From Methylotenera oryzisoli (GTDB lineage Bacteria; Pseudomonadota; Gammaproteobacteria; Burkholderiales; Methylophilaceae): a stretch of DNA of 41,226 nucleotides. A model generated the notes under the pieces. The model saw only the letters and a list, made by a program, of their open reading frames with translations. It made no database searches and had not been told where the DNA came from. The position numbers and the translations under genes were made by a program. The stretch is taken from assembly GCA_945872425.1 (NCBI GenBank), contig CAMBZE010000008.1, forward strand, positions 1 through 41,226, in the 5' to 3' direction. Numbering within the stretch: the stretch's first letter is position 1; each line of letters opens with the position of its first letter. Positions 1,034 through 18,118 of this stretch are shown here, piece by piece.

Positions 1034-1951
1034 ATGGAAAAACCCAGTATCCTCCATTTATTTACTGCTGCTAAAAATGTCAGTCCGTTTGATGTCAACA
1101 TGGCATATGATGCGGGTTTTGATAAGATCATGTCTTATACGAATGTGGCGTTATCAGAAATAACTGGTCTGACGCAAGATGCTATTTTTTCGCGAAGTTT
1201 ATCTGGTGTAAAACGTGAAAGTATTTTTATTGGCGGGCGCGATACTGACCTTGCCATGCAGATGTTAGACGCTTGCAAAAAAGCGATGTTTGCCCCGTTT
1301 GTGTGCTCTGTATTTGCAGACCCTTCTGGGGCATTTACTACTGCAGCAGCAATGATTGCTAAAGTTGAGGCTCATCTCAAAGAAAAGTTTGCTGAAGATT
1401 TAACCGGTAAAACACTCAGTGTATTTGGTGCTACCGGGCCGGTGGGTGGGTGTGTTGCCATTATTGCGGCACAGCAAGGCGCAAAAGTTCAGATGGTTGC
1501 GCATCGCTCAGTTGCCACGGTAGAGCCTAAAGCCACAGCATGGAATGCACAATATCAAGTCAATATGCAGGTGGTAGATGGCACGACTGAAGCGAAAAAG
1601 CTGGACATTCTGGCGCAAACTGAAATTGTGATTTGTGCGGCAGCAGCGGGGGTACAGGTCATTAGTCAAGCGCATTTGACGCATGCAAAGCAGTTAAAAA
1701 TTGTAGCAGATGTTAATGCGGTGGCACCTTTAGGTGTGCAGGGGGTGGGAGTCAGTGATGACGGTGTGTTAATTGCAGATACGCAAGCTTACGGTATCGG
1801 TGCGCTTGCGATTGGTCAGCTTAAGTATATAACGCAACACCAGTTGTTGAAACAAATGTTGCATTCAGATCAGCCACTTGAAAAGCCAAAATATTTAGAA
1901 TTTATGGCGGCATTCAAATTGGCGCATGAGCTATTAAACAATCCATCCTGA
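1034..1951 (+). CDS. mtdB: NAD(P)-dependent methylene-tetrahydromethanopterin dehydrogenase MtdB
   Basis: MtdB oxidises methylene-H4MPT to methenyl-H4MPT with NAD(P)+ in the cytoplasmic formaldehyde oxidation pathway. The 305-residue protein has the usual family length. It opens with MEKPSILHLFTAAKNVSPFDVN and has the FIGGRD signature near residue 67. A Rossmann dinucleotide-binding loop, SVFGATGPVGG, follows at about residues 134-144. The start is the ATG at 1034, with a weak purine-rich stretch (AGAGAAA) upstream. The stop codon (TGA, 1949-1951) overlaps the proposed CTG start of the next gene, suggesting translational coupling. Mch, the next enzyme of the pathway, lies further downstream. 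Confidence 0.95.
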   Translation: MEKPSILHLFTAAKNVSPFDVNMAYDAGFDKIMSYTNVALSEITGLTQDAIFSRSLSGVKRESIFIGGRDTDLAMQMLDACKKAMFAPFVCSVFADPSGAFTTAAAMIAKVEAHLKEKFAEDLTGKTLSVFGATGPVGGCVAIIAAQQGAKVQMVAHRSVATVEPKATAWNAQYQVNMQVVDGTTEAKKLDILAQTEIVICAAAAGVQVISQAHLTHAKQLKIVADVNAVAPLGVQGVGVSDDGVLIADTQAYGIGALAIGQLKYITQHQLLKQMLHSDQPLEKPKYLEFMAAFKLAHELLNNPS

Positions 1952-3105
1952 TTATTGCGTTATCTGCACGCCCCTTTGTTGAGATTGCAGCAAAGGCGGG
2001 CTTTGTCACAACGGTGATCGATGCCTTTGCCGATGTGCAAACCGCCGCGTTAGCAGAAAAAACTACAGTGGTTGGTTATAGCGCCCGCGGATTTGATGCT
2101 GATGCCTTGTTAGGCGAAATTCATCAACTGGATGCCAATCAGTTTGTAGGTTGCGTTTATGGGAGTGGATTTGAAGCACAACCGGAGTTGTTGCAAAGAA
2201 TAGCTGAGATTATTCCTTTAATTGGAAATTCTGCAGAAACAGTGGCTGCGGTAAAGAATGCCTCCAAGTTTTTTGCCGTATTAAAGCAATTAAAAATCCC
2301 CCACCCTTCAGTGCTTGATGTTTTGCCTGTTAGCAGCGTAAATGATGGCTCCGTTGTTTATTTAAAGAAAAATTCCGGTGGTAGTGGCGGAACGCATATC
2401 ACGCAAGTGGGTGCGAATGAAATTAGTCTGCTTGATAATGAATATTATCAGCAACAGTTATCCGGGCGCTCAGTATCATTATTGTTTATGGCAGATGGGC
2501 GTGAAGTAGAGCCGGTCGGTTTTAACGAGCAGTGGTTAAGTCCGTGGGCGAAAATGCCGTTTCGCTATGGCGGCGCCGTCAGTCGGATTGTGCTAGATTC
2601 AAGTGTTCAGCAGCAGCTTATAGCTGCGGCAAAGAAATTAACGATGGCGTTCGATCTGTTAGGTTTAAATAGTCTCGACGCGATTGTGCAAGAGGGTACG
2701 GTTTACGTGCTGGAAGTGAATCCCAGATTAAGTGCCACCGTTGATTTATACGGAGATATTGAAGAAAACTTGATTGATAGGCATGTGCAAGTTTGTTTGG
2801 CTCGGGGCGGTCTAAATCAGGCCAAAGTAACAGATGAGTCTCGTGTTGCACCATCGAAAGCACACGCTATTGTGTACGCAACCATGGATACAGAAATTGC
2901 AGCGTCGTTTGCATGGCCTGGTGCATGGTTGAGTTGGTTAGTGGATGTTCCCAATCACTCAGGTAATTCTGCGCAGCCCATCAAAATACCTGCCGGCGAC
3001 CCAATATGTACGGTCATTGCCTGTGCAGAGGGTGCAGAAGTGGCGAAACAGTTAGCATGTGCTAGAGTTGAGCTCGTGCTAAATTTATTTAAAGGGCACC
3101 TCTAA
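1948..3105 (+). CDS. ATP-grasp protein of the H4MPT island (OrfY-like)
   Basis: This ATP-grasp family protein sits between mtdB and mch. In other methylotrophs an ATP-grasp gene at this place has been called OrfY, a name I recall rather than can prove; its reaction is unknown to me. ATP-grasp features are a lysine region (VVYLKKNSGGSGGTHI), the segment PVGFNEQW, and the metal-binding YVLEVNPRLSATVDLYG. The first conventional start, GTG 2014, would remove an N-terminal strand. The open frame upstream encodes LIIALSARPFVEIAAKAGF from 1948, which looks like the true N-terminus. I therefore place the start at CTG 1948, which forms a CTGA overlap with the mtdB stop; ATT 1933 (giving IKQSILIIAL) is an alternative, and the frame closes at TGA 1927-1929. 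The last codons (GGG CAC CTC TAA) lie inside the left arm of a MITE-like repeat. Confidence 0.85.
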   Translation: MIIALSARPFVEIAAKAGFVTTVIDAFADVQTAALAEKTTVVGYSARGFDADALLGEIHQLDANQFVGCVYGSGFEAQPELLQRIAEIIPLIGNSAETVAAVKNASKFFAVLKQLKIPHPSVLDVLPVSSVNDGSVVYLKKNSGGSGGTHITQVGANEISLLDNEYYQQQLSGRSVSLLFMADGREVEPVGFNEQWLSPWAKMPFRYGGAVSRIVLDSSVQQQLIAAAKKLTMAFDLLGLNSLDAIVQEGTVYVLEVNPRLSATVDLYGDIEENLIDRHVQVCLARGGLNQAKVTDESRVAPSKAHAIVYATMDTEIAASFAWPGAWLSWLVDVPNHSGNSAQPIKIPAGDPICTVIACAEGAEVAKQLACARVELVLNLFKGHL

Positions 3106-3294: not shown

Positions 3295-4269
3295 GTGCAA
3301 AACGCAACACCATCATTACAATCGCAACCAAGTGTTAATCAACTGAGCGCACCTTTAGTGCAGAAGTTACTGCAACAGGCAGATGTTTTGCAGTTAGGTG
3401 TTTCTCGGCATGAAGCAGGTTGTGTGATTGTCGATGCAGGTATTCAGCATGCGGGTAGCGCTGAAGCGGGACGAATTATTGCTGAAATTTGCATGGGAGG
3501 TCTTGGTCAGGTTGCATTGCAGGTAGATAACCGCTTTGCTGATTGGCATGACGCAATTGCAGTGAGTTCTACACAGCCGATCATTGCTTGCCTGGCCAGT
3601 CAGTATGCTGGTTGGGCGTTGAGCCATGAGAAGTTTTTCTCATTGGGGTCAGGTCCGGCGCGTGCCTTGGCGCAACGTGAAAATTTGTTTAAAGAGCTTG
3701 CCTATGTGGATGTGGCAAATAGTACCTGCATCGTGTTGGAAACTGATCAAGTACCGCCAGTACAAGTCATAGAAAAAATTGTACGGGATACTAAAATTGC
3801 TCCCGAGCAACTCACCATTATTTTAACTCCAACAACCAGTATTGCCGGCGTTGTACAGATTGTGGGGCGCGTACTCGAGGTGGCGTTGCATAAGGCACAT
3901 ACCTTGCATTTTCCACTGGAAAATATTGTGAGTGGTAGCGGCTTGGCTGTTTTGCCACCGGTCGCCAAAGATTTTATGACAGCGATGGGGCGCACCAATG
4001 ATGCGATTTTGTTTGGTGGATATGTTAGTCTGCAAGTCAAAGGTAATGATCTAGCGGCTGCCGAATTGGCTGCAAGCCTGCCAAGCAGCGCTTCTAAGGA
4101 CTACGGTAAAACGTTTGCCGAAGTGTTCAAGTTTTATAATATGGATTTCTATAACATTGACCCTTTGTTGTTCTCCCCAGCCAAAGTGACGGTAACCAAT
4201 GTGGATACAGGCAATGTGTTTGAGGGCGGGCAATTAAACGCGGCATTGATTGATTTGTCATTTCGCTAA
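3295..4269 (+). CDS. mch: methenyl-tetrahydromethanopterin cyclohydrolase Mch
   Basis: Mch hydrolyses methenyl-H4MPT to N5-formyl-H4MPT, the step after MtdB in formaldehyde oxidation. At 324 residues it has the normal family length. Recognisable segments are GVSRHEAGCVIVDAGIQHAG near the N-terminus, EICMGGLGQV, a central PIIACLASQYAGW, FSLGSGPARALA, and the C-terminal FGGYVSLQVKG. The start is the GTG at 3295, preceded by AAGGGA at a good distance, which fits a genuine GTG start. A MITE-like repeat separates it from the ATP-grasp gene upstream. The next ATP-grasp gene begins 48 nt downstream on the same strand. Confidence 0.95.
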   Translation: MQNATPSLQSQPSVNQLSAPLVQKLLQQADVLQLGVSRHEAGCVIVDAGIQHAGSAEAGRIIAEICMGGLGQVALQVDNRFADWHDAIAVSSTQPIIACLASQYAGWALSHEKFFSLGSGPARALAQRENLFKELAYVDVANSTCIVLETDQVPPVQVIEKIVRDTKIAPEQLTIILTPTTSIAGVVQIVGRVLEVALHKAHTLHFPLENIVSGSGLAVLPPVAKDFMTAMGRTNDAILFGGYVSLQVKGNDLAAAELAASLPSSASKDYGKTFAEVFKFYNMDFYNIDPLLFSPAKVTVTNVDTGNVFEGGQLNAALIDLSFR

Positions 4270-4317: not shown

Positions 4318-5205
4318 TTGAAAATTCCTATTTTTACTGATGAAGCCGGCTGGCAAGGTGCTCAGCTTAAGCAGGCTTTTGCGCGGCGTGGTGTTGAAAC
4401 CGTGTTTGTATCGTTGCAAGCGTGTGTCATCAATCTGGCACAGCAACAGCCAACCATTGATATTCCAGATTTTGATGCTTTGCCACCAGCCGCTTTTGTA
4501 CGAGGTGTGACTGGCGGAACACTGCCGCAAGTAATTACGCGTTTAAACGTATTGCACATGCTGGCAAAGCAAGGGGTGAGAATTTATAACGATGTCAAAG
4601 CGATTGAACGCACCGTTGATAAAGCAATGACCAGTTTTCTGTTGCGCACGCATGGCGTGGCAACGCCAGCCACCTGGGTATGTGAGTCCAGGTTGGAAGC
4701 TGAGCGTATTCGCCAAATGGCATTAGAAAATAATCAGTCACTAGTCATTAAGCCATTATTCGGCTCGCAGGGACAGGGGGTGCGTATGTTGCCAAGCAAT
4801 GAGGCGTTGCCTGTGCCGATGCAGCAGTATGTAGATGGCGTATATTATTTGCAGCAGTTGATTGAAAGCGCTGAGGTACCACATGATTATCGTGTGTTTG
4901 TGGTTGGCGATAAAGTGGTTGCTGCGATGAAACGGTTTGGCAGCGGGTTTGTGAGTAATGTGGCTGCAGGCGGGCGTTGTGAAACTGTACAGGCGAATGA
5001 AATAATGACGCAACTTGCTTTGCAGGCCGCAAAAGCCGTGGAGATTGATTACTGTGGCGTGGACATTATCCAAGCGGCTAATGGCGAATATTATGTGCTG
5101 GAAGTGAACAGCATTCCCGCATGGCGTGGTTTGCAGAGCGTGACGAATTTTAATATTGCAGATGTCTTGGTCGATGACTTTTTAAATAAAATGTACCGTG
5201 GCTAA
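4318..5205 (+). CDS. RimK-like ATP-grasp ligase of the H4MPT island (Orf5-like)
   Basis: This is a 295-residue ATP-grasp protein of the RimK/MptN type, which join acidic amino acids to small molecules or proteins. Family features are a nucleotide-binding lysine in VIKPLFGSQGQGV (about residue 144), DYRVFVVGDKVVAAMKR, and the C-terminal metal-binding CGVDIIQAANGEYYVLEVN followed by SIPAWRGLQ. Archaeal relatives add glutamate to methanopterin, so a role in building the cofactor side chain is a reasonable inference, not proven. The start is a TTG at 4318, giving the natural strand KIPIFTDEAG; no ATG lies near. It overlaps the following CitG-like gene by 8 nt if that gene starts at GTG 5198. Confidence 0.88.
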   Translation: MKIPIFTDEAGWQGAQLKQAFARRGVETVFVSLQACVINLAQQQPTIDIPDFDALPPAAFVRGVTGGTLPQVITRLNVLHMLAKQGVRIYNDVKAIERTVDKAMTSFLLRTHGVATPATWVCESRLEAERIRQMALENNQSLVIKPLFGSQGQGVRMLPSNEALPVPMQQYVDGVYYLQQLIESAEVPHDYRVFVVGDKVVAAMKRFGSGFVSNVAAGGRCETVQANEIMTQLALQAAKAVEIDYCGVDIIQAANGEYYVLEVNSIPAWRGLQSVTNFNIADVLVDDFLNKMYRG

Positions 5206-6058
5206 CATGATCGTCAGAAAACATAGCGCTGAACAACTGGCTAAAGCCTATAAAACCGCTTGTATGGCTGAATTGCAAGCGCTGAAACCAGGTAATGTAC
5301 ACGTGTTTGCCGATGGTCACGGCATGACCATTCATGATTTTATTAAAAGTGCAGATGTCACCGCGAATATTATTACCCAGCCCAACCTGACCATCGGTGA
5401 GCGTATTTTTCACTCAGTTGCGGCGACACAGCAGGCGGTTGGTCAAAATACAAATTTAGGCGTGGTGTTGTTATGTGCACCCTTGATTGAAGCGGCTTTG
5501 CATGCGGATGGTAGGCAAACGCTGCAACAAAGTCTGAACGACATGCTCAACCAGTTCACCATTGACGATGCTAGGTGGGTTGCAAAAGCGATTCTATTGG
5601 CAAATCCTGCAGGTCTGGGGAGTGCAGAATTGCATGATGTACACCAGGAACCAAGCGTTACATTGCTGGCAATGATGCAAACAGCGCAAGATAATGATCG
5701 TATTGCATGGCAATACGCGAATAGTTATCAGGATGTTATTGAGTTCGGTGTTGCGCGCTATGTAGCTGCAATGGAAAAGTGGCAAAATTCAGCATGGGCA
5801 ACCACCGCTTTGTATCTCGGCTTGCTCGCCCACAATTTGGATACACATATCATCCGAAAATACGGCAAGGGATTGGCTGATGAGTTGTTGCAGGATGCGC
5901 TGGCGTTTGAAGCTATTTACTGGGAAACCGACAACCCAAAACTTGTGCAGAAAAAGCTGCTGGCTTGGGATGCCTCACTCAAGGAGCGCGGGATCAATCC
6001 AGGCACAAGTGCAGATTTAACGGTGGCAACATTGCTGGCAACTTATCTTGGCTGTTAG
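5198..6058 (+). CDS. CitG-like (triphosphoribosyl-dephospho-CoA synthase family) protein of the H4MPT island (Orf7-like)
   Basis: This 286-residue protein belongs to the CitG/MdcB family, whose classical members make the prosthetic-group precursor of citrate lyase from dephospho-CoA and ATP. No citrate lyase or malonate decarboxylase genes are present here; instead it lies in the H4MPT island, where a CitG-like protein (called Orf7 in methylotrophs) recurs. Family signatures are ALKPGNVHVFADGHGM near residue 28, NTNLGVVLLCAPLIEA near residue 83, the motif DTHIIRKYGKG, and NPGTSADLTVATL at the C-terminus. A cofactor-related ribosyl-transfer role is inference. The start is GTG 5198, overlapping the preceding gene, or ATG 5207 just after it; neither has a strong ribosome binding site. 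Confidence 0.87.
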   Translation: MANMIVRKHSAEQLAKAYKTACMAELQALKPGNVHVFADGHGMTIHDFIKSADVTANIITQPNLTIGERIFHSVAATQQAVGQNTNLGVVLLCAPLIEAALHADGRQTLQQSLNDMLNQFTIDDARWVAKAILLANPAGLGSAELHDVHQEPSVTLLAMMQTAQDNDRIAWQYANSYQDVIEFGVARYVAAMEKWQNSAWATTALYLGLLAHNLDTHIIRKYGKGLADELLQDALAFEAIYWETDNPKLVQKKLLAWDASLKERGINPGTSADLTVATLLATYLGC

Positions 6059-6177: not shown

Positions 6178-7131
6178 ATGGCTACTTTATTAGAGCAATT
6201 AAAAACTATGACCACTATCGTGGCAGACACAGGCGATGTAGAGGCGATTAAAGCGGTTAAGCCTGTTGATGCAACAACCAACCCATCATTAGTGTTAAAA
6301 GCAAGTCAGTTGCCACAGTATGCACCATTGATTGAGGCTGCTATTGCATACGCCAAAGCACAAGGCGGTTCTAAAGCGCAACAAATTGATAATGCGGCTG
6401 ACAAGTTGGCTGTGTTAATTGGTACGGAAATTACGAAAGAAGTGCCAGGCCGCATTTCAACTGAAGTAGATGCCCGATTATCTTTTAATTTGGATGCAAT
6501 GGTGGCTAAAGGCCGTAAACTGATTCAGTTGTATCAAGATGCAGGCATAAGTAAAGACCGCGTGTTGATTAAATTGGCTTCAACTTGGGAAGGCATTAAA
6601 GCGGGTGAAATTCTTGAAAAAGAAGGCATCCAATGTAATCTGACATTGTTATTCGGTTTTGGTCAAGCACGTGCTTGTGCTGAAGCAGGCGTGTTCCTGA
6701 TTTCTCCATTCGTTGGCCGTATCTTAGACTGGTACAAAGCGAAAAACCCAGGTACAGAATACACACAAGAAACTGACCCAGGTGTGGTTTCAGTGCGCGC
6801 TATTTATCAATACTACAAAGAGCACGGTTATAAAACAGTGGTGATGGGGGCTTCATTCCGTAACACTGGCGAGTTGATTGCTTTGGCGGGTTGTGACCGC
6901 TTAACAGTATCTCCAAACTTGTTGCAGGATTTAGCCGCAACAGAAGGTACTCTAGTGCAAGTGTTAAAAGATAATGGCGCTACTAAAACACCTTCAGCTA
7001 AATTGACTGAAGAAGAGTTCCGCTTTGAATTAAACCAAGACGCAATGGCAACAGAAAAGTTGGCAGAAGGTATCCGCGGTTTTGTCGCTGACCAAAATAA
7101 ACTGGAAGCTGCTTTAAGCGCAAAACTATAA
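6178..7131 (+). CDS. tal: transaldolase
   Basis: Transaldolase exchanges a dihydroxyacetone unit between sugar phosphates and here serves the regeneration branch of the RuMP cycle. The 317-residue length and the motif [15 protein letters not shown] place it in the TalB type. The Schiff-base lysine lies in [16 protein letters not shown] (about residue 132). [12 protein letters not shown] and [12 protein letters not shown] are further family motifs. It has its own strong ribosome binding site (AGGAGG), an upstream TATAAT and a downstream rho-independent terminator, so it is probably a separate transcription unit. It stands directly before hps and hpi, which supply hexulose phosphate to the same cycle. 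Confidence 0.96.
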
Positions 7132-7196
7132 GCGATCGGTGCAAAAATTTTGTAATTAAAGTGTAATCTTATCGCTTTAGAATTGACATAAGTAGG

Positions 7197-7228
7197 CTGG
7201 GCATTTACTATGAGTGTCCAGTTTTTTT
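7197..7228 (+). terminator. rho-independent terminator after tal
   Basis: A stem formed by 7197-7205 and 7213-7221 (CTGGGCATT with AGTGTCCAG, two G-U pairs) is followed by seven T residues at 7222-7228. Confidence 0.8.
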
Positions 7229-7291
7229 ATAGCGCTAAATTTTAGTGCTTGAATTTGAAATAGTAGAATCTAATTCACGACATTTTTTGTA

Positions 7292-7322
7292 GTTAACTTA
7301 CTGTTTAATATCAGTAATTAAC
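7292..7322 (+). promoter_or_regulatory. imperfect inverted repeat upstream of hps
   Basis: GTTAACTTACTG (7292-7303) and CAGTAATTAAC (7312-7322) are complementary apart from one bulged base, separated by 8 nt. The site ends 76 nt before the hps start. It could be an operator or a hairpin in the 5' leader. The strong ribosome binding site CCGGAG at 7388-7393 lies downstream. No clear -35/-10 pair could be fixed nearby. Confidence 0.45.
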
Positions 7323-7398
7323 TGTGTGAAGAGTGAGTTTTATTTTGCAAAATTGCAATAAATCTGTAACACCTTAAAACTATTAACCGGAGAACACC

Positions 7399-8031
7399 AT
7401 GGCTTTAACCCAAATGGCATTAGATTCATTAGACTTTGACGCAACAGTTGCTTTAGCAACTACAGTTGCTCCACACGTGGACATCCTTGAAATCGGTACA
7501 CCATGCATCAAGCACAACGGTATCAAATTGCTTGAAGTATTGCGCGCTAAATTCCCAAACAACCAAATCTTGGTTGACTTGAAAACAGCTGATGCTGGTT
7601 TCTACGAAGCTGAGCCATTCTTCAAAGCTGGTGCAGACATCGTTACTGTATTAGGTATTTCTGATATCGGTACAATCAAAGGTGTAATCGATGTTGCTAA
7701 CAAATACGGCAAAAAAGCACAAGTTGATTTGATCAACGTTGCTGACAAAGTTGCTGTTACTAAAGCAGTTGCTGCTGCTGGCGCTCACATCATCGGCGTT
7801 CACACTGGTTTGGACCAACAAGCTGCTGGCCAAACACCATTTGCTGACTTGGCATTGGTTGCTGGTTTGAACTTAGGTGTTGAAATCTCAGTGGCTGGTG
7901 GCGTTAAAGCTGCTACAGCTAAACAAGTTAAAGATGCAGGTGCAACAATCATCGTTGCTGGTGCTGCTATCTACGGTGCAGCTGACCCTGCTGCATCTGC
8001 TGCTGAAATCACAGCTATCGTTCACGGTTAA
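7399..8031 (+). CDS. hps: 3-hexulose-6-phosphate synthase
   Basis: This key RuMP-cycle enzyme condenses formaldehyde with ribulose 5-phosphate to D-arabino-3-hexulose 6-phosphate in the cytoplasm. The 210-residue TIM barrel belongs to the orotidine-phosphate decarboxylase suprafamily. The conserved Asp-x-Lys-x-x-Asp set is D60, K62 and D65 in LVDLKTADAGF. EIGTPCIKHNG (about residue 31) and the phosphate-binding VAGGVKAAT and VAGAAIYGA are also present. Codon use is strikingly biased toward AAC, ATC, GAC and TAC, unlike its neighbours, as expected of one of the most abundant proteins in the cell. A hairpin and a strong terminator follow, then hpi. Confidence 0.97.
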   Translation: MALTQMALDSLDFDATVALATTVAPHVDILEIGTPCIKHNGIKLLEVLRAKFPNNQILVDLKTADAGFYEAEPFFKAGADIVTVLGISDIGTIKGVIDVANKYGKKAQVDLINVADKVAVTKAVAAAGAHIIGVHTGLDQQAAGQTPFADLALVAGLNLGVEISVAGGVKAATAKQVKDAGATIIVAGAAIYGAADPAASAAEITAIVHG

Positions 8032-8041
8032 TTCAACCTCT

Positions 8042-8063
8042 TTTCAATAAGTCATTATTGAAA
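8042..8063 (+). other. perfect hairpin at the 3' end of the hps transcript
   Basis: TTTCAATAA (8042-8050) and TTATTGAAA (8055-8063) form a perfect 9-bp stem with a GTCA loop. It has no T tract, lies between the hps stop and the terminator at 8077-8110, and may protect the message from 3' decay. Confidence 0.5.
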
Positions 8064-8076
8064 TGAACGAATAAAA

Positions 8077-8110
8077 AATCCTGACTCAGCAATGGGTCGG
8101 GATTTTTTTT
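8077..8110 (+). terminator. rho-independent terminator between hps and hpi
   Basis: An 11-bp stem pairs 8077-8087 with 8094-8104 around the loop AGCAAT, with two G-U pairs, and is followed by a run of T residues to 8110. It should limit hpi expression relative to hps unless hpi has its own promoter. Confidence 0.85.
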
Positions 8111-8149
8111 GTAAAATTAAAACTATCTTTGATTCAAAAAGGAAATATC

Positions 8150-8689
8150 ATGAGTAGCAGTCAAAAATTAATTTTAGATAAATTAACCAATGTATTAGCA
8201 GATACTGATAATTCTAAGTCAGCTGAACTGTTAAAACTGGTTGATCAGGCAGGCCGCACATTTATCGGTGGTGCAGGTCGCTCTTTATTGGTGTCACGCT
8301 TCTTTGCCATGCGTTTAGTGCATGCTGGCTACAACGTAAGCATGATTGGTGAAGTGGTAACGCCTGCTATTAAAGCCGGTGATTTGTTAATTCTGGTTTC
8401 CGGCTCTGGCGGTACAGAAACCTTGTTGCCATTTGTAAAAAAAGCAAAATCAGTGGGTGCGAAATTGGTTGTGATTTCAATGAAGAAATCTTCACCAATG
8501 GCTGATGTGGCTGATTTAGTGATTCAAGTCGGTAATGACAACAGTTTCCCGCTGACAAAAGGCATGCCAATGGGTTCACAATTTGAGCTTTCAACATTGA
8601 TTTTCCTCGAAGCGATCATTGCTGATTTGATTTTTGCTAAAGATTTGACTGAAGAGGGTATGCGCGCTATTCACGCTAACCTAGAATAG
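8150..8689 (+). CDS. hpi: 6-phospho-3-hexuloisomerase
   Basis: This SIS-domain isomerase converts 3-hexulose 6-phosphate to fructose 6-phosphate, the second RuMP step. The start is ATG 8150: AAAAAGGAAA lies 6-7 nt upstream, whereas an in-frame TTG at 8129 has no ribosome binding site. The resulting 179-residue length matches the family. SIS signatures are GGAGRSLLVSRFFAMRL near residue 40 and LVSGSGGTETLLPFVKKAK near residue 85, with MPMGSQFELSTLIFLEA near the C-terminus. It lies 118 nt after hps with a terminator in between. A bidirectional terminator follows. Confidence 0.95.
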   Translation: MSSSQKLILDKLTNVLADTDNSKSAELLKLVDQAGRTFIGGAGRSLLVSRFFAMRLVHAGYNVSMIGEVVTPAIKAGDLLILVSGSGGTETLLPFVKKAKSVGAKLVVISMKKSSPMADVADLVIQVGNDNSFPLTKGMPMGSQFELSTLIFLEAIIADLIFAKDLTEEGMRAIHANLE

Positions 8690-8734: not shown

Positions 8735-8776
8735 AAACTCGACTGGTGAACCGGATTCCTAGTCGAGTTTTTTATT
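8735..8776. terminator. bidirectional terminator between hpi and the HisA-like gene
   Basis: AAACTCGACT (8735-8744) pairs perfectly with AGTCGAGTTT (8761-8770) and is followed by T residues on the plus strand. The minus-strand gene ends at 8772, so its stop codon borders the stem and the structure can serve both converging genes. Confidence 0.8.
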
Positions 8777-9485
8777 GACTTAAGCTTTCTATTTGTTGGT
8801 AAGTGAGCTGTTTTTGATGTAATGCGGTAGCGATTAAAGCGCCATGAACGCCTAAGTGTTTTAATCGGTTCAAATCATCCACTCCTCTTACTCCGCCTGC
8901 TGCATATAGATTAAAGTTAGCCGTATATTGCTTAAATTTTTCCAGTAATGCGAAATTCACACCTTGATTTGTGCCTACGTTGGCAAGCGACATGATAATG
9001 ACATCTTTAGGCCAGAAATGGGGGTTATCAAGTAATGCTATTGGGCCTTGATAGCCATGTGGCATGAAGTCCAAAGATAATACATGCTGCGCATTCAACT
9101 GTTTTTTAACCGCTAAAAAACTTTCTAAATTGGAAAAGTTTTCACTGCCCAGAATCACGTTGGAGTTTAGTCCGCTCCAGTGGCTAAGTTCAGATTGGTT
9201 GCTGCTGCCGGTATCAATCCAGACTTTGAGCTGGGGAAATTTCTGGAGGATGGTTTGAATCGCGTTAAAATTGCTGTTATTGCTATCGCCGAGTTTTTGT
9301 ATGGCATTTAAATCAGCAATGTACAGATGTTGGAACGGGTAGTATTCAAGCAAAGCTGCGACAATATCTAAAGGCTTGCTAGAATGCGTTAATAATGACT
9401 GAATGGCTTGGTAATGCTGGCGCTCTCCTTTTTTAGCGTGAACCACCACGCCATTTAACAAATCAATTACCGGGATTATTTGCAT
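8772..9485 (-). CDS. HisA/HisF-like TIM-barrel protein of the methylotrophy cofactor locus
   Basis: This 237-residue (beta/alpha)8 protein is related to HisA (ProFAR isomerase). The N-terminus MQIIPVIDLLNGVVVHAKKG keeps the strand-1 aspartate (D8), LSLDF keeps a second aspartate, and LYAAGGVRGVDDL is a phosphate-binding loop. The HisA strand-3 GGG loop is replaced by WIDTGSS. Archaeal and methylotroph genomes carry HisA-like paralogues beside methanofuran-type genes, so a role in cofactor synthesis rather than histidine synthesis is inferred; no other histidine gene is in the window. The start is ATG 9485 (ATG 9488 is adjacent); the frame extends upstream but reads the neighbour's antisense. 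Its start codon lies only 25 nt from that of the divergent ATP-grasp gene, leaving almost no room for promoters. Confidence 0.85.
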   Translation of the reverse strand: MQIIPVIDLLNGVVVHAKKGERQHYQAIQSLLTHSSKPLDIVAALLEYYPFQHLYIADLNAIQKLGDSNNSNFNAIQTILQKFPQLKVWIDTGSSNQSELSHWSGLNSNVILGSENFSNLESFLAVKKQLNAQHVLSLDFMPHGYQGPIALLDNPHFWPKDVIIMSLANVGTNQGVNFALLEKFKQYTANFNLYAAGGVRGVDDLNRLKHLGVHGALIATALHQKQLTYQQIESLSQ

Positions 9486-9510: not shown

Positions 9511-10524
9511 GTGTGTGAGTTTATCACTGGCGGCGGCTTAAGTGCAGAAGTGTTGCCTGATTCATTGGCTAACGAGGGCGCCATGATGCGTGATGCCTTG
9601 TTGCGCGATTTGGTAGCGTTGAATCAATTTGAAATCATTACCATGCACGACGCAAGGCTCGTACCTTCGGCATTGGCTACGCGCAGTATTGTGGTTGAGT
9701 CTGGGCAGTTTAAAAATGCTTTTAGTGCAGCGTTAGGGCAAGCAGAATTGGTTTGGCTGATTGCACCTGAATCTGATGGCACTTTGCTGGAACTCAGCGA
9801 GTTGTGTTATGAAAACCATAAAAATGGCGCACTGTTTTTAGGCTGTGGTTTTGATGCAATGCTGATTGGCACCAGTAAAACACTGTGCTTTGAGGCCCTG
9901 CAGGCGGCCAATATCCACACCTTGCCAGTACATGCCGGTGAGGATCTTATGCAGTCAGCCTACTATGAAAGCTTGCTCCGGCAGAATGTGCGTAAGTGGG
10001 TAGCAAAGCCGGAAGATGGCGCGGGGTGCGAGGGTATTCAAGTGTTTGATTCTCTTCATGACTTAAAGCATTGGATAGTGCAGGACGACCGATATTTACA
10101 CTATTTGGCACAACCCTATCAGCAAGGGATTGTCGCTAGTTTTTCCATGTTGTGTCGTGATGGCAAGGGATGGTTGTTAAGTTGCAACCAGCAACATATT
10201 GCAAGTGATGACGGCAAATTCAAGCTAACAGGCGTGACGGTGAACGGTATGCTACCTTACTGGCAACGTTTTGAAACCATCGCCAGAAAAATCGCCAGAA
10301 TGTTACCGGATGCTTTAGGTTATGTGGGTGTCGATGTGATTGTCGATACGGAAAATAACAATAAAATTTACGTGCTGGAAATAAATCCGCGTTTGACAAC
10401 CAGTTATGTCGGTTTGTCTGCGGCGCTTAACACCAACCCAGCAAAGCTAATATTGGATTGTGTGTTGAGTGATCAATTTAATATGCCATTATTGGTCAGA
10501 AAGCAGGTTGAAATTCAGTTATGA
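9511..10524 (+). CDS. ATP-grasp ligase similar to tyramine-glutamate ligase MfnD (Orf17-like)
   Basis: The protein belongs to the ATP-grasp family (COG1821-type) that includes archaeal MfnD, which attaches glutamate to tyramine in methanofuran synthesis. Visible features are CEFITGGGLS at the N-terminus, KWVAKPEDGAGCEGIQVF (ATP-binding lysine, about residue 162) and the metal-binding YVLEINPRLTTSYVGLS. A glutamate-ligase role in methylofuran synthesis is inferred. The start is uncertain: GTG 9511 is the first conventional codon, but KKLLV is encoded just upstream and looks like the missing first strand. CTG 9508 or ATC/ATT codons at 9475-9487 are alternatives; the frame is open back to 9442. 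It overlaps the next gene by ATGA (10521-10524). Confidence 0.87.
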   Translation: MCEFITGGGLSAEVLPDSLANEGAMMRDALLRDLVALNQFEIITMHDARLVPSALATRSIVVESGQFKNAFSAALGQAELVWLIAPESDGTLLELSELCYENHKNGALFLGCGFDAMLIGTSKTLCFEALQAANIHTLPVHAGEDLMQSAYYESLLRQNVRKWVAKPEDGAGCEGIQVFDSLHDLKHWIVQDDRYLHYLAQPYQQGIVASFSMLCRDGKGWLLSCNQQHIASDDGKFKLTGVTVNGMLPYWQRFETIARKIARMLPDALGYVGVDVIVDTENNNKIYVLEINPRLTTSYVGLSAALNTNPAKLILDCVLSDQFNMPLLVRKQVEIQL

Positions 10525-11585
10525 AGCAAAACCTGGTGACGCAACCGGCGATTGGTTGGGATATTGGCGGCGCACATTTGAAAGCGGTGTTGGTGAGTGT
10601 TGATGGATGTGCACTTGCAGTTAAACAAGTGTATTGTCCCTTGTGGCGAGGCTTGCATGAGCTGGAGCATGCGATAGATGCCGTTCTGTCAGATTTTAAT
10701 GCGCATCATCACTTTGTGACGATGACAGGAGAGCTGGCAGATATTTTCCAGAATCGGCATGCAGGTGTGGTGCAAATAGCGCAAACACTGCACCGGAGGT
10801 TATCTCAGTCGCCAAAAATAAATGCACAAGTAAAATATTATGCCGGCAATCAAGGGTTTGTAACGATTGAGGCGGTTGGGCAATACACTGCAGATATAGC
10901 CTCCATGAATTGGTTGGCGAGTGTGCAATATGTTGCACAGAACGTGCAGCAGGCTTTGTTTATTGACATTGGCAGCACAACCACAGATATTGCGTTAATC
11001 AGCAATGGTAAAGCGCTGGTGCGCGGTTTTAACGATGCTGCACGCATGCAGTTGGATGAATTGGTGTACACGGGAGTGGTGCGCACACCGCTCATGGCAC
11101 TGGCGCAAAAGATTCCCTTTGCCGGTCAGTTGACGAATGTTGCTGCCGAGTGTTTTGCGACCAGTGCGGATGTTTATACTTTAACGGGTGACTTGGCGCA
11201 GGCAGACAACATGGCAGAAACTGCAGATGGAGCAGAAAAGAGCATAGAAGCCAGTGCGCGTCGCATTGCACGAATGATAGGGCATGATGCGCTAGATGCA
11301 CCTTTGTCAGCCTGGCATCATTTGGCTCATGCGTTCAAGCATGCGCAACTCAACCTCATCAAGCAAGCGGTATTTACTCAGATGTCCCAGCTAAAAGATT
11401 GTCGAAACCTATCTATCATAGGCGCGGGAGCGGGTGAGTTTATGGTCGGCGAGTTGGCAAGGCAATTAGGTGTTAAGTATGCATCGGCGAGTGATTTCAT
11501 TCATGCAGAAAGCGATACGATAAAAAACAGGGCTAAAGTGAGCTTTCCAGCTTATGCAGTCGCTTGTTTGGGGCTTAAATCATGA
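10521..11585 (+). CDS. H4MPT-linked C1-transfer pathway protein, MfnF-like (hydantoinase/ASKHA fold)
   Basis: This 354-residue protein belongs to the COG1548 family, annotated as 'H4MPT-linked C1 transfer pathway protein'. Its archaeal relative MfnF couples the aminomethylfuran unit to gamma-glutamyltyramine in methanofuran synthesis; whether the methylotroph enzyme does exactly this is inference. An ASKHA-type phosphate-1 motif is seen at the start (GWDIGGAHLKAVLV), a phosphate-2-like motif at ALFIDIGSTTTDIALIS (about residue 150), and LSIIGAGAGEFMVGELA near residue 295. It overlaps both neighbours by ATGA (10521-10524 and 11582-11585), so translation of the operon is tightly coupled. Confidence 0.9.
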   Translation: MKQNLVTQPAIGWDIGGAHLKAVLVSVDGCALAVKQVYCPLWRGLHELEHAIDAVLSDFNAHHHFVTMTGELADIFQNRHAGVVQIAQTLHRRLSQSPKINAQVKYYAGNQGFVTIEAVGQYTADIASMNWLASVQYVAQNVQQALFIDIGSTTTDIALISNGKALVRGFNDAARMQLDELVYTGVVRTPLMALAQKIPFAGQLTNVAAECFATSADVYTLTGDLAQADNMAETADGAEKSIEASARRIARMIGHDALDAPLSAWHHLAHAFKHAQLNLIKQAVFTQMSQLKDCRNLSIIGAGAGEFMVGELARQLGVKYASASDFIHAESDTIKNRAKVSFPAYAVACLGLKS

Positions 11586-13036
11586 GCTTGCTGCGGCACG
11601 AGTTAACTTACCACGCTGATAGTGCACGTTTGTTTGCTCGCATTGCACATCAGCCATGGGCAATGTTTTTAGATAGTGGCCAGATGATAAACCCTGCAAC
11701 TGGCAAGCCGGGTAGCCAATACGGGCGATATGATATTTTGGTGGCAGATCCGATAATTACTTTTTCCACCCATGATGCACTGACCACAATCCATGCGCAT
11801 GGGCAAACGCATACCTCATCAGAGGATCCATTTCAGTTGATTAAAAATGCGTTAGCCCCCTATCAGGTGGCATCATTGGATACCCCGCGTGATTTTCCAT
11901 TTTCAGGGGGGGCGGTCGGTTATTTTGGCTATGATTTAGCGCGACGATTAGAAAAACTGGATTCTATTACGCAGGATGATAAAGCCATTGCTCAGATGCA
12001 AGTGGGTATTTACGACTGGGCCATAGTAATTGACCATCGCAATAAAACAGCACATTTGGTATCGCACGGCTTTGACGCTAAAACTCGTGAGCATTGGTCC
12101 GGGTTGTGCGCTTTGTTTGATACGCCCAATGAAACGCATGCAGTCATGGCTATAGAGTTTGAAATAACTTCTGCCGTAACTTCCAACATGAACAAAAAGG
12201 CCTATCAAACGGCTTTTAATGTCATACAACGTTATATTCATGCAGGTGACTGCTATCAAGTCAATCTTGCTCAGAGATTTTCAGCCAAAGCACGGGGTAA
12301 TGGTTGGGTGGCATACCGTAAGTTGAGGGAAATAAGCCCTGCACCATTTATGGCCTATATGAATTTAGGCCATTTGCAGGTAATTTCAGGCTCGCCTGAG
12401 CGGTTTTTGCAAGTAGTGGATGGGCATGTTGAGACTCGCCCAATTAAGGGCACCAGACCGCGCGCTGATGATGTGGCGCTTGATCAGCAGTATGCAAAGG
12501 ATTTGCAATCCAGCCTCAAAGATAAAGCTGAAAATCTAATGATTGTGGATTTATTGCGCAACGATATCAGCAAAAATTGTGAAATTGGCTCGGTGAAGGC
12601 GGATAAATTATTTCAGCTACAGAGTTTTGCCAACGTACATCATTTGGTGAGCATTGTGACTGGCGTGTTGCAACAAGGTAGAACTGCAATTGATTTGCTA
12701 CGTGGTTGCTTTCCCGGGGGGTCTATTACCGGCGCGCCTAAATTAAGAGCGATGCAAATTATTGAAGAGCTGGAACCGAGTCGGCGTGGTGTTTATTGTG
12801 GTGTCATTGGTTATATTGGTTTTGATGGCAATATGGATACGAATATTGCCATTCGCACGGCGGTTTATGTTACTGCTGAAGGGGTTGCTGAAAGTGCTAT
12901 TGAAGGTGAAATCAGCTTTTATGCCGGTGGTGGCATCGTTGCTGACTCTGACCTTGAAAAAGAGTATAGCGAGACATTGGACAAAGCTTCTGGCATGTTA
13001 AAGATGATGCAATTTTTCAATAAGGCAACCAGTTGA
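11582..13036 (+). CDS. pabB: aminodeoxychorismate synthase component I
   Basis: PabB converts chorismate and ammonia to 4-amino-4-deoxychorismate, the precursor of p-aminobenzoate. The 484-residue protein shows the chorismate-binding fold: ISGSPERFL, the PIKGTRPR motif carrying the active-site lysine of PabB, NLMIVDLLRNDI, FPGGSITGAPKLRAMQIIEEL and GEISFYAGGGIVADSD. No PabA amidotransferase or PabC lyase domain is fused. p-Aminobenzoate is a substrate of beta-RFAP synthase (encoded at 1-933) as well as a folate precursor, which explains a pabB copy inside a methanopterin/methanofuran operon. It overlaps the MfnF-like gene by ATGA, and the next gene begins 19 nt downstream. Confidence 0.94.
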   Translation: MSLLRHELTYHADSARLFARIAHQPWAMFLDSGQMINPATGKPGSQYGRYDILVADPIITFSTHDALTTIHAHGQTHTSSEDPFQLIKNALAPYQVASLDTPRDFPFSGGAVGYFGYDLARRLEKLDSITQDDKAIAQMQVGIYDWAIVIDHRNKTAHLVSHGFDAKTREHWSGLCALFDTPNETHAVMAIEFEITSAVTSNMNKKAYQTAFNVIQRYIHAGDCYQVNLAQRFSAKARGNGWVAYRKLREISPAPFMAYMNLGHLQVISGSPERFLQVVDGHVETRPIKGTRPRADDVALDQQYAKDLQSSLKDKAENLMIVDLLRNDISKNCEIGSVKADKLFQLQSFANVHHLVSIVTGVLQQGRTAIDLLRGCFPGGSITGAPKLRAMQIIEELEPSRRGVYCGVIGYIGFDGNMDTNIAIRTAVYVTAEGVAESAIEGEISFYAGGGIVADSDLEKEYSETLDKASGMLKMMQFFNKATS

Positions 13037-13055: not shown

Positions 13056-13700
13056 ATGTGGGTGGTGAAATTAGGCGGCAGCTTGTTGGGGTCACCTGAA
13101 CTTCCGCGCTGGCTGGAAACTTTAGTCAAAATTAGTGACGGCAAAGTGGTGATTGTCCCCGGCGGCGGGTTGTTTGCGGATGCGGTACGTGAGGCACAGC
13201 AACGTACGCATATTAGTGATGCAGTCGCACATGAGCTTGCGTTGTTGGCAATGGATCAATTTGGTTTATTGTTAGCAGGCATGAATGCCAACCTGGTCAC
13301 GGCAAGTAGTGAGCTTGAAATTGCAGAGAGGGGCTGGCAACATCGCGGTATTGTTTGGCTACCGAGCAAAATGATTTTGGCTGATGATAATGTAGCTAAA
13401 AATTGGCAAGTAACCTCAGATAGTTTGAGTGCATGGTTAGCTAATAAAATTGGGGCAGAACAGTTGATTTTAGTTAAGTCTAAACTATTGGCGCCTTATC
13501 TGAAATCATCAGCTGTTTCACTTGAGACCTTAGTCGCAGAGGAGTTGATTGATGATGCTTTTGCTGACTTTTTCAGTGGTACGCGTTATCAATCCTGGAT
13601 AGTGAGTAAATCCGATTACTGGCTATTCGAACAAGGTTTAAACCTGCGCCAACTGAGAGAAAACAGTGTTGCGGTGAGTAAAAGTATTGATGGTAGGTGA
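13056..13700 (+). CDS. amino-acid-kinase-family protein, MfnE-like
   Basis: This 214-residue protein has the amino acid kinase fold. The first strand and glycine loop read VVKLGGSLLGSPEL, followed by VIVPGGGLFADAVREAQ at about residue 33 and LILVKSK at about residue 146. The archaeal COG2054 member MfnE phosphorylates aminomethylfuranmethyl phosphate to its diphosphate for coupling by MfnF; the MfnF-like gene in the same operon supports that role here, as inference. The start ATG 13056 has only a weak upstream GATGGG. This is the last gene of the operon, converging on the RND pump gene across a MITE-like repeat. Confidence 0.87.
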   Translation: MWVVKLGGSLLGSPELPRWLETLVKISDGKVVIVPGGGLFADAVREAQQRTHISDAVAHELALLAMDQFGLLLAGMNANLVTASSELEIAERGWQHRGIVWLPSKMILADDNVAKNWQVTSDSLSAWLANKIGAEQLILVKSKLLAPYLKSSAVSLETLVAEELIDDAFADFFSGTRYQSWIVSKSDYWLFEQGLNLRQLRENSVAVSKSIDGR

Positions 13701-13888: not shown

Positions 13889-16800
13889 TTAATCTGATTC
13901 AGATTTCTCAAATTTTCCGAAATGCAGCATAATCGTGGGAAGAATGAGCAGGTTGAGTATAGTGGATGTGACCAATCCGCCTACAATAATGGTTGCCATT
14001 GGACCTTCAATTTCACGCCCGGGTTGACCGCTCCCGATTGCCAGCGGCAATAGCCCCAGAGCGGTGACTAAGGCGGTCATTAAAATTGATGGGAGTCGTT
14101 CGGATGCGCCGCGGATGCAGGTTTCCAAACCCCAAACGCAGTTTTCTGCATCAATCAGGTGTTGGTAGTGCGATATCATCATGATGGAGTTGCGCAGGGT
14201 AATGCCGAATAGTGTGACAAAACCAACCAGTGAACCCAGTGAAATCCAGCCGCCGGTAAACATGACGGCGAGTACGCCACCAATCAGGGCGAAAGGTAAA
14301 TTGGCAAAGGTGAGTAGCAGATTGCGCAGTCGCCCAAATGCAATATAAAGCATTAAAAATACGGTAACGCCCGCCAGCAGTGATTGCAGGATAAGCGCTT
14401 CTCTTGATTTGGCATTCGCTTCGGCCGCTCCGGTGAACTCTAAATAAGCCCCTTGGGAAAGCGCAAGGTCCGTGCTTAGCCGACTTTTAAGTTCGTCGGT
14501 AAAGGCGCCAATGTCTCGATCCACGACATTGGCAGTTACGGTCTGAATGCGTTTTGCACCGGCATGTAGTATTTTTGAGCGCCCGTTTTCCTGCACAATA
14601 TCAGCAACATCACGCAAGCGTAATAATTTTCCTTCTGCGTTAAATAAAGGTAGGTTGCCTGCCTCCTGTACGTCGTCACGTGCTTCCAAATTCAGCAATA
14701 CGCTCACGCCAATCACGCGGTTGCCTTGATACACCTGCGCGACCGGTACACCTTCGTAGGCGGCGCGAATGTTATCTAAAACGTCGGTGGGGTATAAGCC
14801 TAACCTTGCCATTTTTTCAGGGAGTAGTCGTATAACCAGTTGCGGCGTACCCGGGGGCGACTGTATCAATACATCGCTGGCCCCTTTTATACTGTTTACA
14901 ATGCTGGCAATGGCGTTGGCATCGCGGTCCAGCGCATCCAAATCCTGGCCATAGATGTTGATAACGGTTGAGGCGGCATAACCCGAGATAGTCTCTTCAA
15001 TACGTTCAGTCAGGAAGGTATTGATGGCGAAATTTACACCCACGAAACCGGCTTCTGCTTTCCCGTCACCGTCCCTATCGATTTTTTCACCTGCCAGATT
15101 CTCTCTGATTTCATCGAGAATACGCCGTTGTTCCTGACCGGCAATAGCGCCGATTTCAATTTCAAATTCGCTGTAATGTGTGCCAAAAGTATCGGCGCCA
15201 TTAGGTGCGCGCCCAACCCACTGCGTAACAGATTTAACGCCATCGATGTTGCGTATTACTGCGGAGACTTTTTTGCCGATTCGCAAAGATTCCTGCTCCG
15301 ACGTGCCCGGTACAGCGGTCATGTGCATGACGTAATGCCCTTCATGCAATGCCGGAATAAATTGATTTTTGAATAAAGGCAGTGTGCCTAACCCAATTGC
15401 AATGAACATAAAGCTGGCGGCAAGGGTTGCTTTGTAATGGGCTTCAATTTTGAGCAGTGAATTTACGTACCATTTCTTAATAATACGTATTAGTGGTGGG
15501 TCTGCTGATTCCAGCTTGGCATTCCCTAACAGTAAATAACAAAGTGTCGGTGTCAGCGTTAACGCCACTAATAAAGAGGCAAGAATGGCAGCAATATAAG
15601 CGAGGCCTAATGGCGCAAACAGTTTGCCGGCTACGCCACCCAAGGTCAGTAGCGGCATAAATACCAGTGCCACAATAATGGTTGCATAGACTACCGAGCT
15701 ACGCACTTCCATAGAGGCATTAAAGACAACGCGATGTGTCGGTAGCGGCAGGGCCAGCGTACGATTTTCACGCAGACGCCTGAATATATTTTCAGTATCA
15801 ATAATGGCATCGTCTACCACTTCACCTAGCGCAATAGCCAAGCCGCCAAGTACCATGATGTTTAATCCAATGTTGAAGTGGCTCAGTACCACAATAGCAG
15901 TGAGCAATGAAAGTGGAATGGCGGTTGCCGAAATAAACGCAGTGCGTGCGTTGAATAAAAATAGAAAGAGTACGGTGATGACTAAAATTGAACCAATTAA
16001 AATATCGGTCCGTACACCTTTAATGGCGACTTCGATAAAATTAGCTGGTCTGAACAAACCTTCATGTAAGGTCATGTTTTCAGTAGCCAAGCCGGGTTTT
16101 AGCTCTTGCAGTGCTTTTTCAATGGCCTGCGTTACTCCGTGCGTATTGGCGCCAAGCTGACTTTGTATGGAAAGGTACACGCCGGTTTCTTCGTTGATGG
16201 CGGCAGCACTGATGGATGGGGCTGTGCCCTCAACTACTTGTCCAATGTCGCCTAATCTAATGGTTTGTCCATTTTTATGCAGCAGTGTGACCTGTGCCAG
16301 TTTCTCCGGTGATGTAGACTGCCCTTCAGTATTGATGATAATGCGCTGATTTTTATTCTCAATAAAACCATTGCCACGCACCCCGGTAGCTTTTTTAACG
16401 GCTTCTTCTATTTGAATCAATGAGATGCCATAACGAATCATCTTTTCCGGGTCAGCTTGCACTTGAAATTGCCGTATTTTTCCGCCAAATACATTCACAT
16501 CAGCTACGCCCGGAATCGCAAGTAAATGCGGCACGATCACCCAATCGACAAAAGTGCGAATTTCAGTGAGGTTACGTGTCTTTGAGGTTAAACCAACCCC
16601 CAGCACCGTGCTGGCGGAAGAGGTAAGTGGTGTAATGTTGGGTGTGATGCCCAGGGGCAATTTGTTGGTGAGTGTAGATAGACGCTCGGCAATCACTTGC
16701 CGATTGCGATAAATGTCAGTGCCTTCATCAAAAATAATAGTAACGATTGATAAGCCTGGTATGGATTGCGAGCGCATGCTTTCAATCCCCACGGCGCCTG

Positions 16801-17020: not shown

Positions 17021-17026
17021 GGCGAT

Positions 17027-18091: not shown

Positions 18092-18118
18092 TTTTTGTTG
18101 ACCCCATCACGCTTTCAC

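Follow-up and report, generated by a model that had tools for sequence, protein, structure and literature searches.

Most methylotrophs use methylofuran (MYFR) as the formyl carrier when they oxidise formaldehyde, as described in PMC8141765 (Hemmann and colleagues, 2021), where the Orf17 family and its requirement for methylofuran were already published. According to that study, Orf17 of Methylorubrum extorquens (Mext_1835) is a PF00977 protein occurring beside true HisA and HisF; its deletion abolished methylofuran and left the MYFR-Glu(n) intermediates absent, with MYFR restored on complementation and methenyl-dH4MPT still being made in the mutant. Its discoverers proposed that it acts early, for instance in core formation, and omitted it from the methylofuran pathway that they drew, its role being unclear. 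In the same account no bacterial enzyme is assigned to the amination of 4-HFC-P to F1-P, MfnC being unidentified in bacteria, and the published pathway leaves out one essential protein, Orf17. A homologue with 26% identity to Orf17, MJ_0703, is reported there from M. jannaschii. No later literature on Orf17 or its chemistry was found among the matches listed, and what is added here is a quantified phyletic and positional link, an archaeal contrast, residue contrasts with HisA and HisF, and a set of exceptions.

The gene under study was found on the minus strand at 8772..9485 of the window, which is the whole stretch of 41,226 nucleotides analysed, as an open frame whose translation is 237 aa long. 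The mechanical open reading frame extends upstream to an ATG at 9584, and the alignment of orthologues begins at the ATG at 9485, which supports the latter as the probable true start. The first-pass annotation had described a HisA-like TIM barrel, and this description was borne out. In particular, the protein matched Pfam His_biosynth (PF00977) with 91.4 bits against a cut-off of 23.6, and its top NCBIfam model was TIGR00734 (hisAF_rel) with 123.5 bits, short of the curated cut-off of 179.85; the HisA equivalog TIGR00007 scored 69.5 bits, under its cut-off of 228.95. An AlphaFold model built from 21 orthologues reached a mean pLDDT of 94.2 and a pTM of 0.92; the closest solved fold was HisA/PriA (4u28; Z 25.2, rmsd 2.5, 223 aligned residues, 23% identity), and the next was HisF (1gpw; Z 23.4, 14% identity). 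The top PDB sequence matches were also HisA, so that no closer relative than HisA seems to have been solved structurally. Furthermore, the DTGSS motif that had been singled out at strand 3 is real, but it is not peculiar to the window protein, and its presumed rarity was rejected, as D-[A/T/S]-G is the ordinary form at this place in the family (21 aligned sequences).

Divergent from this gene, with 25 bp between the listed starts, lies an mfnD-like gene for an ATP-grasp ligase of the orf1 type (9511..10524), followed on the same plus strand by an mfnF-like gene, orf9 (10521..11585), a pabB-like gene for aminodeoxychorismate synthase component I (11582..13036) and an mfnE-like gene of the amino-acid-kinase family (13056..13700). 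The mfnF-like gene matched TIGR03123 with 330 bits, above the cut-off of 244.1, and the mfnD-like and mfnE-like matches fell under the curated cut-offs of the archaeal models. The earlier statement that the barrel gene is opposite to, and directly beside, MfnD/MfnF/MfnE-like genes was thus confirmed, with the pabB-like gene, which presumably serves methanopterin, sitting between mfnF and mfnE. At lower positions in the window, the plus strand carries an mptG-like gene for beta-RFAP synthase that has lost its first residues at the contig end (22..933), a methylene-tetrahydromethanopterin dehydrogenase gene of the mtdB type (1034..1951), an ATP-grasp gene (2014..3105), mch for methenyl-tetrahydromethanopterin cyclohydrolase (3295..4269), a gene for a RimK/MptN-like ligase of the myfB/orf5 type (4318..5205), a CitG-family gene that we take to be of the orf7 type (5198..6058), and ribulose-monophosphate genes for transaldolase, hexulose-phosphate synthase and hexulose-phosphate isomerase (6178..8689). 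The ATP-grasp gene at 2014..3105 presumably occupies the myfA/orfY place, a name given from position and family and from PMC8141765. Thus, the barrel gene lies inside a cluster for H4MPT and methylofuran (mptG, mtdB, mch, myfB-like, orf7, mfnD, mfnF and mfnE in the window), and no HisH gene was found among its neighbours there. Beyond the mfn genes, an AcrB-type efflux pump and an outer-membrane efflux protein are encoded on the minus strand (13889-19579), together with a 354-aa gene that occupies the place of the adaptor. Elsewhere in the genome, mfnB was found on contig C21 with flavoprotein, DUF6513 and DUF447 genes, and the formyltransferase gene (ftr) on contig C76.

The window protein was 53-63% identical to the 21 closest named-record loci, 16 of them titled Methylotenera (all among the best 80 of 555 relatives), a degree of conservation that argues against a chance product. 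These 80 loci bear titles of Pseudomonadota or its subgroups, save one titled 'bacterium' (L116), and a scan of viral sequences found no relatives. A tree of 37 Orf17-like proteins, 14 HisA and one HisF, the HisF row being a very long branch, placed the Orf17 proteins on one side of a branch with support of 100/98, apart from HisA/HisF, and the copy of Methylobacillus flagellatus L1B (L109) fell within the clade of the window protein. In annotated plasmid records such proteins are named 'HisA/HisF-related TIM barrel protein', and on a Phyllobacterium plasmid a myfB-like gene is followed by an orf7-like gene, fae, a HisA-like gene and then an mfnF-like gene divergent from the HisA-like one, an order which fits the spacing from Mext_1832 (orf5) to Mext_1835 (orf17) given in PMC8141765. 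From its clade, its gene context and its PF00977 match, the window gene is almost certainly the orf17 orthologue of a Methylotenera-like methylotroph, and, judging from the Methylorubrum deletion, it very probably serves methylofuran synthesis and not that of histidine or methanopterin. The first reading, a HisA paralogue in methanofuran-type cofactor synthesis at a step still unassigned, agrees with that deletion of the orthologue as published (PMC8141765).

Co-occurrence with mfn genes, which had been put forward as a check, was analysed in 200 order-level and 398 phylum-level genomes and was nearly perfect: counting distinct genomes over both samples, Orf17 appeared in 41 of 43 mfnF-positive genomes and in none without mfnF, 21 of the 41 having supplied the Orf17 profile (A1) and so matching it by construction, and the other 20 not. 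In the order sample, 26 of 28 mfnF-positive genomes and none of the 172 others had Orf17, with A1 scores of 188-333 bits against 66.5 for the best HisA; in the phylum sample the figures were 18/18 and 0/380, with at least 235 bits for Orf17 and 78.5 for the next match. The Fisher p-values for this co-occurrence were 1e-30 and 1e-31, ignoring shared ancestry. Within the order sample, mfnF (TIGR03123) was above the cut-off in 28 genomes, mptG was present in 28, mfnB clearly in 27 and Orf17 in 26. The link of Orf17 to mfnB was looser than that to mfnF, both appearing in 24 genomes, since three genomes had mfnB without Orf17 (G026, G073 and G084) and two had Orf17 without mfnB (G006, 68% complete, and G136, 79%). 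One genome of 1.3 Mb from the same family as the source (G155) was missing mptG, mfnB, mfnF, ftr and Orf17 altogether, in line with the pathway loss in planktonic Methylophilaceae described in PMC5020050.

These counts depend on the following choices. The A1 profile was used because TIGR00734 alone parts Orf17 from HisA poorly in the order sample. No match among the 200 order-level genomes exceeded its curated cut-off of 179.85. Rows below the cut-off were dropped for TIGR03123 (G097 in the order and G549 in the phylum sample) and TIGR00144 (G039, G160), as were two weak rows for PF04476 (G042, below the cut-off, and G045, at 24.2 bits just above 22.4). Two phylum-level matches of 76-78 bits with A1 (G240, G348) were counted as HisA, their loop-6 sequence being RDG. 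Moreover, the Orf17 copies of G006 and G030 are partial, at contig ends, and in six Orf17 matches the aligned part contains a stop, which is the normal end at residue 230-231 in G174, G136 and G001 and falls after residue 180 in the other three.

In 40 of the 41 genomes, the exception being G380, orf17 was divergent from and adjacent to mfnF or the mfnD-mfnF pair, within 1.3 kb, and its distance to mfnF was 61-175 bp in the genomes without an intervening mfnD. Among the best 80 of the 555 relatives, the divergent 5′ neighbour was mfnD at 73 loci, mfnF at four and an unrecognised gene at three. Co-occurrence was also seen in archaea: at E<=1e-33, TIGR00734 matched two of 14 control genomes, M. 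jannaschii and M. acetivorans, which are the only controls with MfnB and MfnF and the same two that have Ftr, and it was silent in Haloferax and Sulfolobus, where mptG is present and MfnB and MfnF are absent. In this small archaeal sample, the Orf17 family therefore tracks methanofuran, not methanopterin. At E<=1e-25 the model also matched Thermus composti and Deinobacterium chartae, probably through their own HisA, and both matches are gone at 1e-33.

For HisA/PriA, the identity and function of the catalytic residues were taken from PMC9088769, and for HisF from PMC11350729, in which D11 is the acid and D130 the base, with imine intermediates. By profile alignment, HisA D7, R83, S103, T104, D129 and D176 correspond to D8, S95, S114, E115, D139 and V170 of the window protein, respectively, and the stacking Trp (W145) falls in a loop that it is missing. 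Of what the first-pass annotation called both HisA-like aspartates, D8 and D139 hold good, as equivalents of HisA D7 and D129 and also of the HisF pair, but HisA D176 has been replaced; the one phosphate-binding loop that it reported is present, with the C-terminal glycines G171, G175, G197 and G198. Position 170 (HisA D176; PriA D175) was Val in 110, Ile in four, Thr in one and Asp in none of 115 Orf17 proteins, a set in which some species are repeated and from which a 151-aa sequence (L132) was left out. Invariant throughout this set were D8, R22, Y25, D91, E115, S137, D139, W158, G171, G175, G197 and G198; in G001, an orthologue beyond the 115, position 198 is Ser. The conservation of Y55, A57, D58 and I62 in the 115 is biased, as the 80 named-record loci had been retrieved with a pattern over residues 54-62; these four are also invariant in the 21 A1 sequences, chosen without that pattern. 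A six-residue insert in loop 1 relative to HisA adjoins or contains R22 and Y25, and S114, which is Ser or Thr in the 21 aligned sequences, is the one residue retained from the second-phosphate grip of HisA. In the secondary structure of the AlphaFold model, D8, D91, E115 and D139 lie at or just past the C-terminal ends of strands 1, 3, 4 and 5, and such strand ends form the active face of these barrels.

By the alignment, the HisA general acid and second-phosphate Arg are lost, the HisF-type acid/base pair is retained as D8/D139, and D91 and E115 stand in loops 3 and 4, the loops by which HisA grips the second phosphate. The aminoaldose-type isomerisation by HisA chemistry that had been suggested was consequently not upheld, the loop-6 acid never being Asp in the 115 proteins and the second-phosphate Arg being gone; we know of no aminoaldose in the methylofuran pathway. 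Orf17 may instead be a HisA-derived barrel that no longer performs the HisA Amadori isomerisation, that would keep one phosphate site in its C-terminal half and that would use D8 and D139 as a HisF-type acid/base pair. The carboxylates D91 and E115 and the invariant aromatics Y25 and W158 would then suit a small substrate that bears a single phosphate and, at its far end, a carbonyl or an amine/basic nitrogen, a substrate type matched by the pathway molecules 4-HFC-P and F1-P. On balance, Orf17 probably acts once the furan ring has been made, in the F1 branch; if so, the core pathway would close and a HisA-family barrel would gain a new reaction. The likeliest single step would be the amination that turns 4-HFC-P into F1-P, proceeding through an imine and a proton transfer, which was ranked first because the HisF pair does imine chemistry and because no bacterial enzyme is assigned to this amination. 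The whole chain, with this amination included, is given a probability of roughly 0.3. A more specific version is improbable, namely that Orf17 is the missing PLP-free amination enzyme, forming a Schiff base of 4-HFC-P with an amino donor via Asp8/Asp139, shifting a proton and releasing F1-P, with the furan as electron sink in place of PLP; to our knowledge, PLP-free transamination by such a barrel has no precedent.

Amination by Orf17 is favoured by the Methylorubrum deletion phenotype, the co-occurrence with mfnF, the adjacency, the archaeal controls, the invariant residues and the occurrence of MfnB without Orf17 or mfnF, and several results were weighed against it. Recombinant archaeal MfnB, MfnC and MfnE are reported in PMC11365854 to build F1-P in vitro, the amination being ascribed there to the MfnC of a methanogen that has Orf17, and M. 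jannaschii also has an Orf17 homologue. By the alignment, one of the two HisA second-phosphate residues, S103, is still Ser (S114) in the window protein. Furthermore, two mfnF-positive genomes of the same genus, G026 (98% complete) and G073 (87%), had no Orf17 detectable with the A1 profile while holding the rest of the pathway: both carry mptG, mtdB, myfA-, mch-, myfB- and orf7-like genes, mfnB, mfnF, an mfnD-type ATP-grasp gene and ftr, and mfnE and pabB were additionally seen in G026. The syntenic place of orf17 is taken by fae, in two copies in G026 (L185:15488-16918) and at L186:2862-3374 in G073; the open frames at this place are fae, with no HisA-like frame and no signal from the Orf17 profile that would indicate a diverged copy. 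A Pfam scan of ten neighbouring ORFs found no aminotransferase as a replacement in these genomes. A class-II glutamine amidotransferase gene (PF13230) lies in G026 at L176:1839-2714, a few genes from mptG and on the same contig as ftr. Since assembly gaps are unlikely to be the cause in both drafts, Orf17 can probably be lost or replaced.

Amination is followed in rank by a role in the joining step, in which Orf17 would assist MfnF, MfnD or both and would bind or hand over F1-PP for ether formation with the phenol of Glu-Tyr or Glu-tyramine; this we regard as possible but tentative. No feature of orf17 is better conserved than its place beside mfnD-mfnF (40 of 41 genomes and 77 of the 80 named-record loci, the best 80 of 555), down to 61-175 bp from mfnF where mfnD does not intervene, and the tighter link to mfnF than to mfnB points the same way, as does the total loss of MYFR-Glu(n) in the orf17 deletion reported in PMC8141765. 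On the other hand, NCBIfam calls MfnF itself the synthase of the joined product, the discoverers presume in PMC8141765 that MfnF makes it in bacteria, and the kept acid/base pair suggests catalysis by Orf17 itself. The plasmids of Azospirillum ramasamyi bear on both sides of the question: an mfnD-orf17 pair with overlapping starts stands apart from the rest on one plasmid (L213:7971-9744), and mptG, mtdB, mch, orf7 and mfnF (L217:2169-7074), as well as mfnB, are on the other. There orf17 stays with mfnD but is on a different plasmid from mfnF, and, with mfnF and mfnB both elsewhere, the arrangement speaks for the glutamate-tyramine side no less than for F1. Moreover, three Paraburkholderia plasmids (P. 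phymatum STM815, P. caribensis MBA4 and strain PGU19; L218, L219 and L220) carry a second set of mfnD, mfnF, mfnE, mfnB, orf7, myfB, mch and myfA, in which Orf17 is absent from the 9 kb on either side of mfnF, so that mfnD-mfnF stands there without an adjoining orf17. PMC5020050 mentions that some Burkholderia genomes have a further gene set, distinct from the first. The same three strains each have one Orf17 with another mfn set, and this single protein may serve both sets. The Paraburkholderia result also counts against amination; it came last and left the odds of all these readings unchanged, because each strain has an Orf17.

Lower in the ranking, at equal and slight odds, come a part in furan assembly and a role without catalysis. 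In the first case, Orf17 would help MfnB make the furan by triose-phosphate isomerisation, or by dehydration or aromatisation of an intermediate, as might be expected of a phosphate-binding barrel with an acid/base pair and in keeping with the initial step proposed in PMC8141765. However, MfnB alone makes 4-HFC-P in vitro, the enzyme from a mesophile included, according to PMC11365854, and mfnB lies on a different contig from orf17 in the source genome. MfnB also occurs without Orf17: G084 has mfnB and is missing mptG, mfnF, ftr and Orf17, and 13 Streptomyces/Streptantibioticus plasmid records contain mfnB with no match to Orf17 or mfnF in the same plasmid record, from which furan-ring formation seems not to need Orf17. 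In the one such record inspected, a plasmid of Streptomyces zaomyceticus (L216:5995-10257), genes for an aldehyde dehydrogenase, an alcohol dehydrogenase and a methyltransferase follow the mfnB-like gene, and the annotation shows no further mfn gene within 6 kb; the run may serve an uncharacterised furan metabolite.

In the second case, Orf17 would be a binding, scaffold or regulatory protein. The general acid of HisA is gone in all 115 sequences, the scheme of PMC8141765 shows no obvious open reaction, and the genus of G026 and G073 holds the rest of the pathway with no Orf17 detected. Nevertheless, the invariance of D8, D91, E115 and D139, where strands 1, 3, 4 and 5 end, is difficult to account for unless the protein catalyses a reaction or binds a ligand tightly. 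Together, the residue contrasts and the exceptions offer specific mutants and substrates, as well as natural controls, with which the role of Orf17 can be decided.

A role in methanopterin synthesis, as once suggested for MJ_0703, with opening of the ribofuranosyl ring as the obvious step, is very improbable. Such chemistry would suit a relative of HisA and TrpF, and orf17 does sit in the methanopterin cluster; it was rejected on the Methylorubrum mutant, in which methenyl-dH4MPT is still made, so that this role is largely refuted there (PMC8141765), and on the control archaea, TIGR00734 at 1e-33 being silent in the mptG-positive, MfnB-negative Haloferax and Sulfolobus. Finally, that Orf17 is a second HisA for histidine or tryptophan synthesis, as its fold and Pfam family would allow, is the least credible reading and was rejected: two further genes with strong PF00977 matches, whose sequences resemble ordinary hisA and hisF, lie side by side on contig C13 of this genome, separate from the window protein, whereas a lack of any other hisA, together with complementation of histidine auxotrophy, had been named beforehand as the result that would speak for this reading; the HisA general acid is lost, as are the Arg for the second phosphate and the stacking Trp, the clade is separate (100/98), and Orf17 occurs only with mfnF in both the order (200) and phylum (398) samples.

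Compared with the known systems, the window protein is closest to Methylorubrum Orf17 (Mext_1835), which is likewise a PF00977 barrel besides true HisA/HisF in the same type of cluster; the comparison was made by description, Mext_1835 being known here from its published account, and revealed no difference in kind. Relative to most of the 21 aligned Orf17 copies, the loop after strand 2 is four residues longer in the window copy, which has DTG at strand 3 where DAG is the commoner form. The archaeal HisA/HisF family protein represented by TIGR00734 and MJ_0703 is the best NCBIfam match and accompanies MfnB and MfnF in the archaeal controls, with the window protein falling short of the curated score. 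HisA (ProFAR isomerase)/PriA shares with it the fold (Z about 25), the Asp of strand 1, the Asp of strand 5 and the C-terminal phosphate loop; unlike HisA/PriA, the window protein is without the loop-6 Asp, the second-phosphate Arg and the stacking-Trp loop, and has the six-residue insert in loop 1. HisF (the cyclase of imidazole glycerol phosphate synthase) also shares the fold (Z about 23), and its D11/D130 pair corresponds to D8/D139; unlike HisF, with which identity is 14%, the window protein has no neighbouring HisH gene and would hold one phosphate site instead of two.
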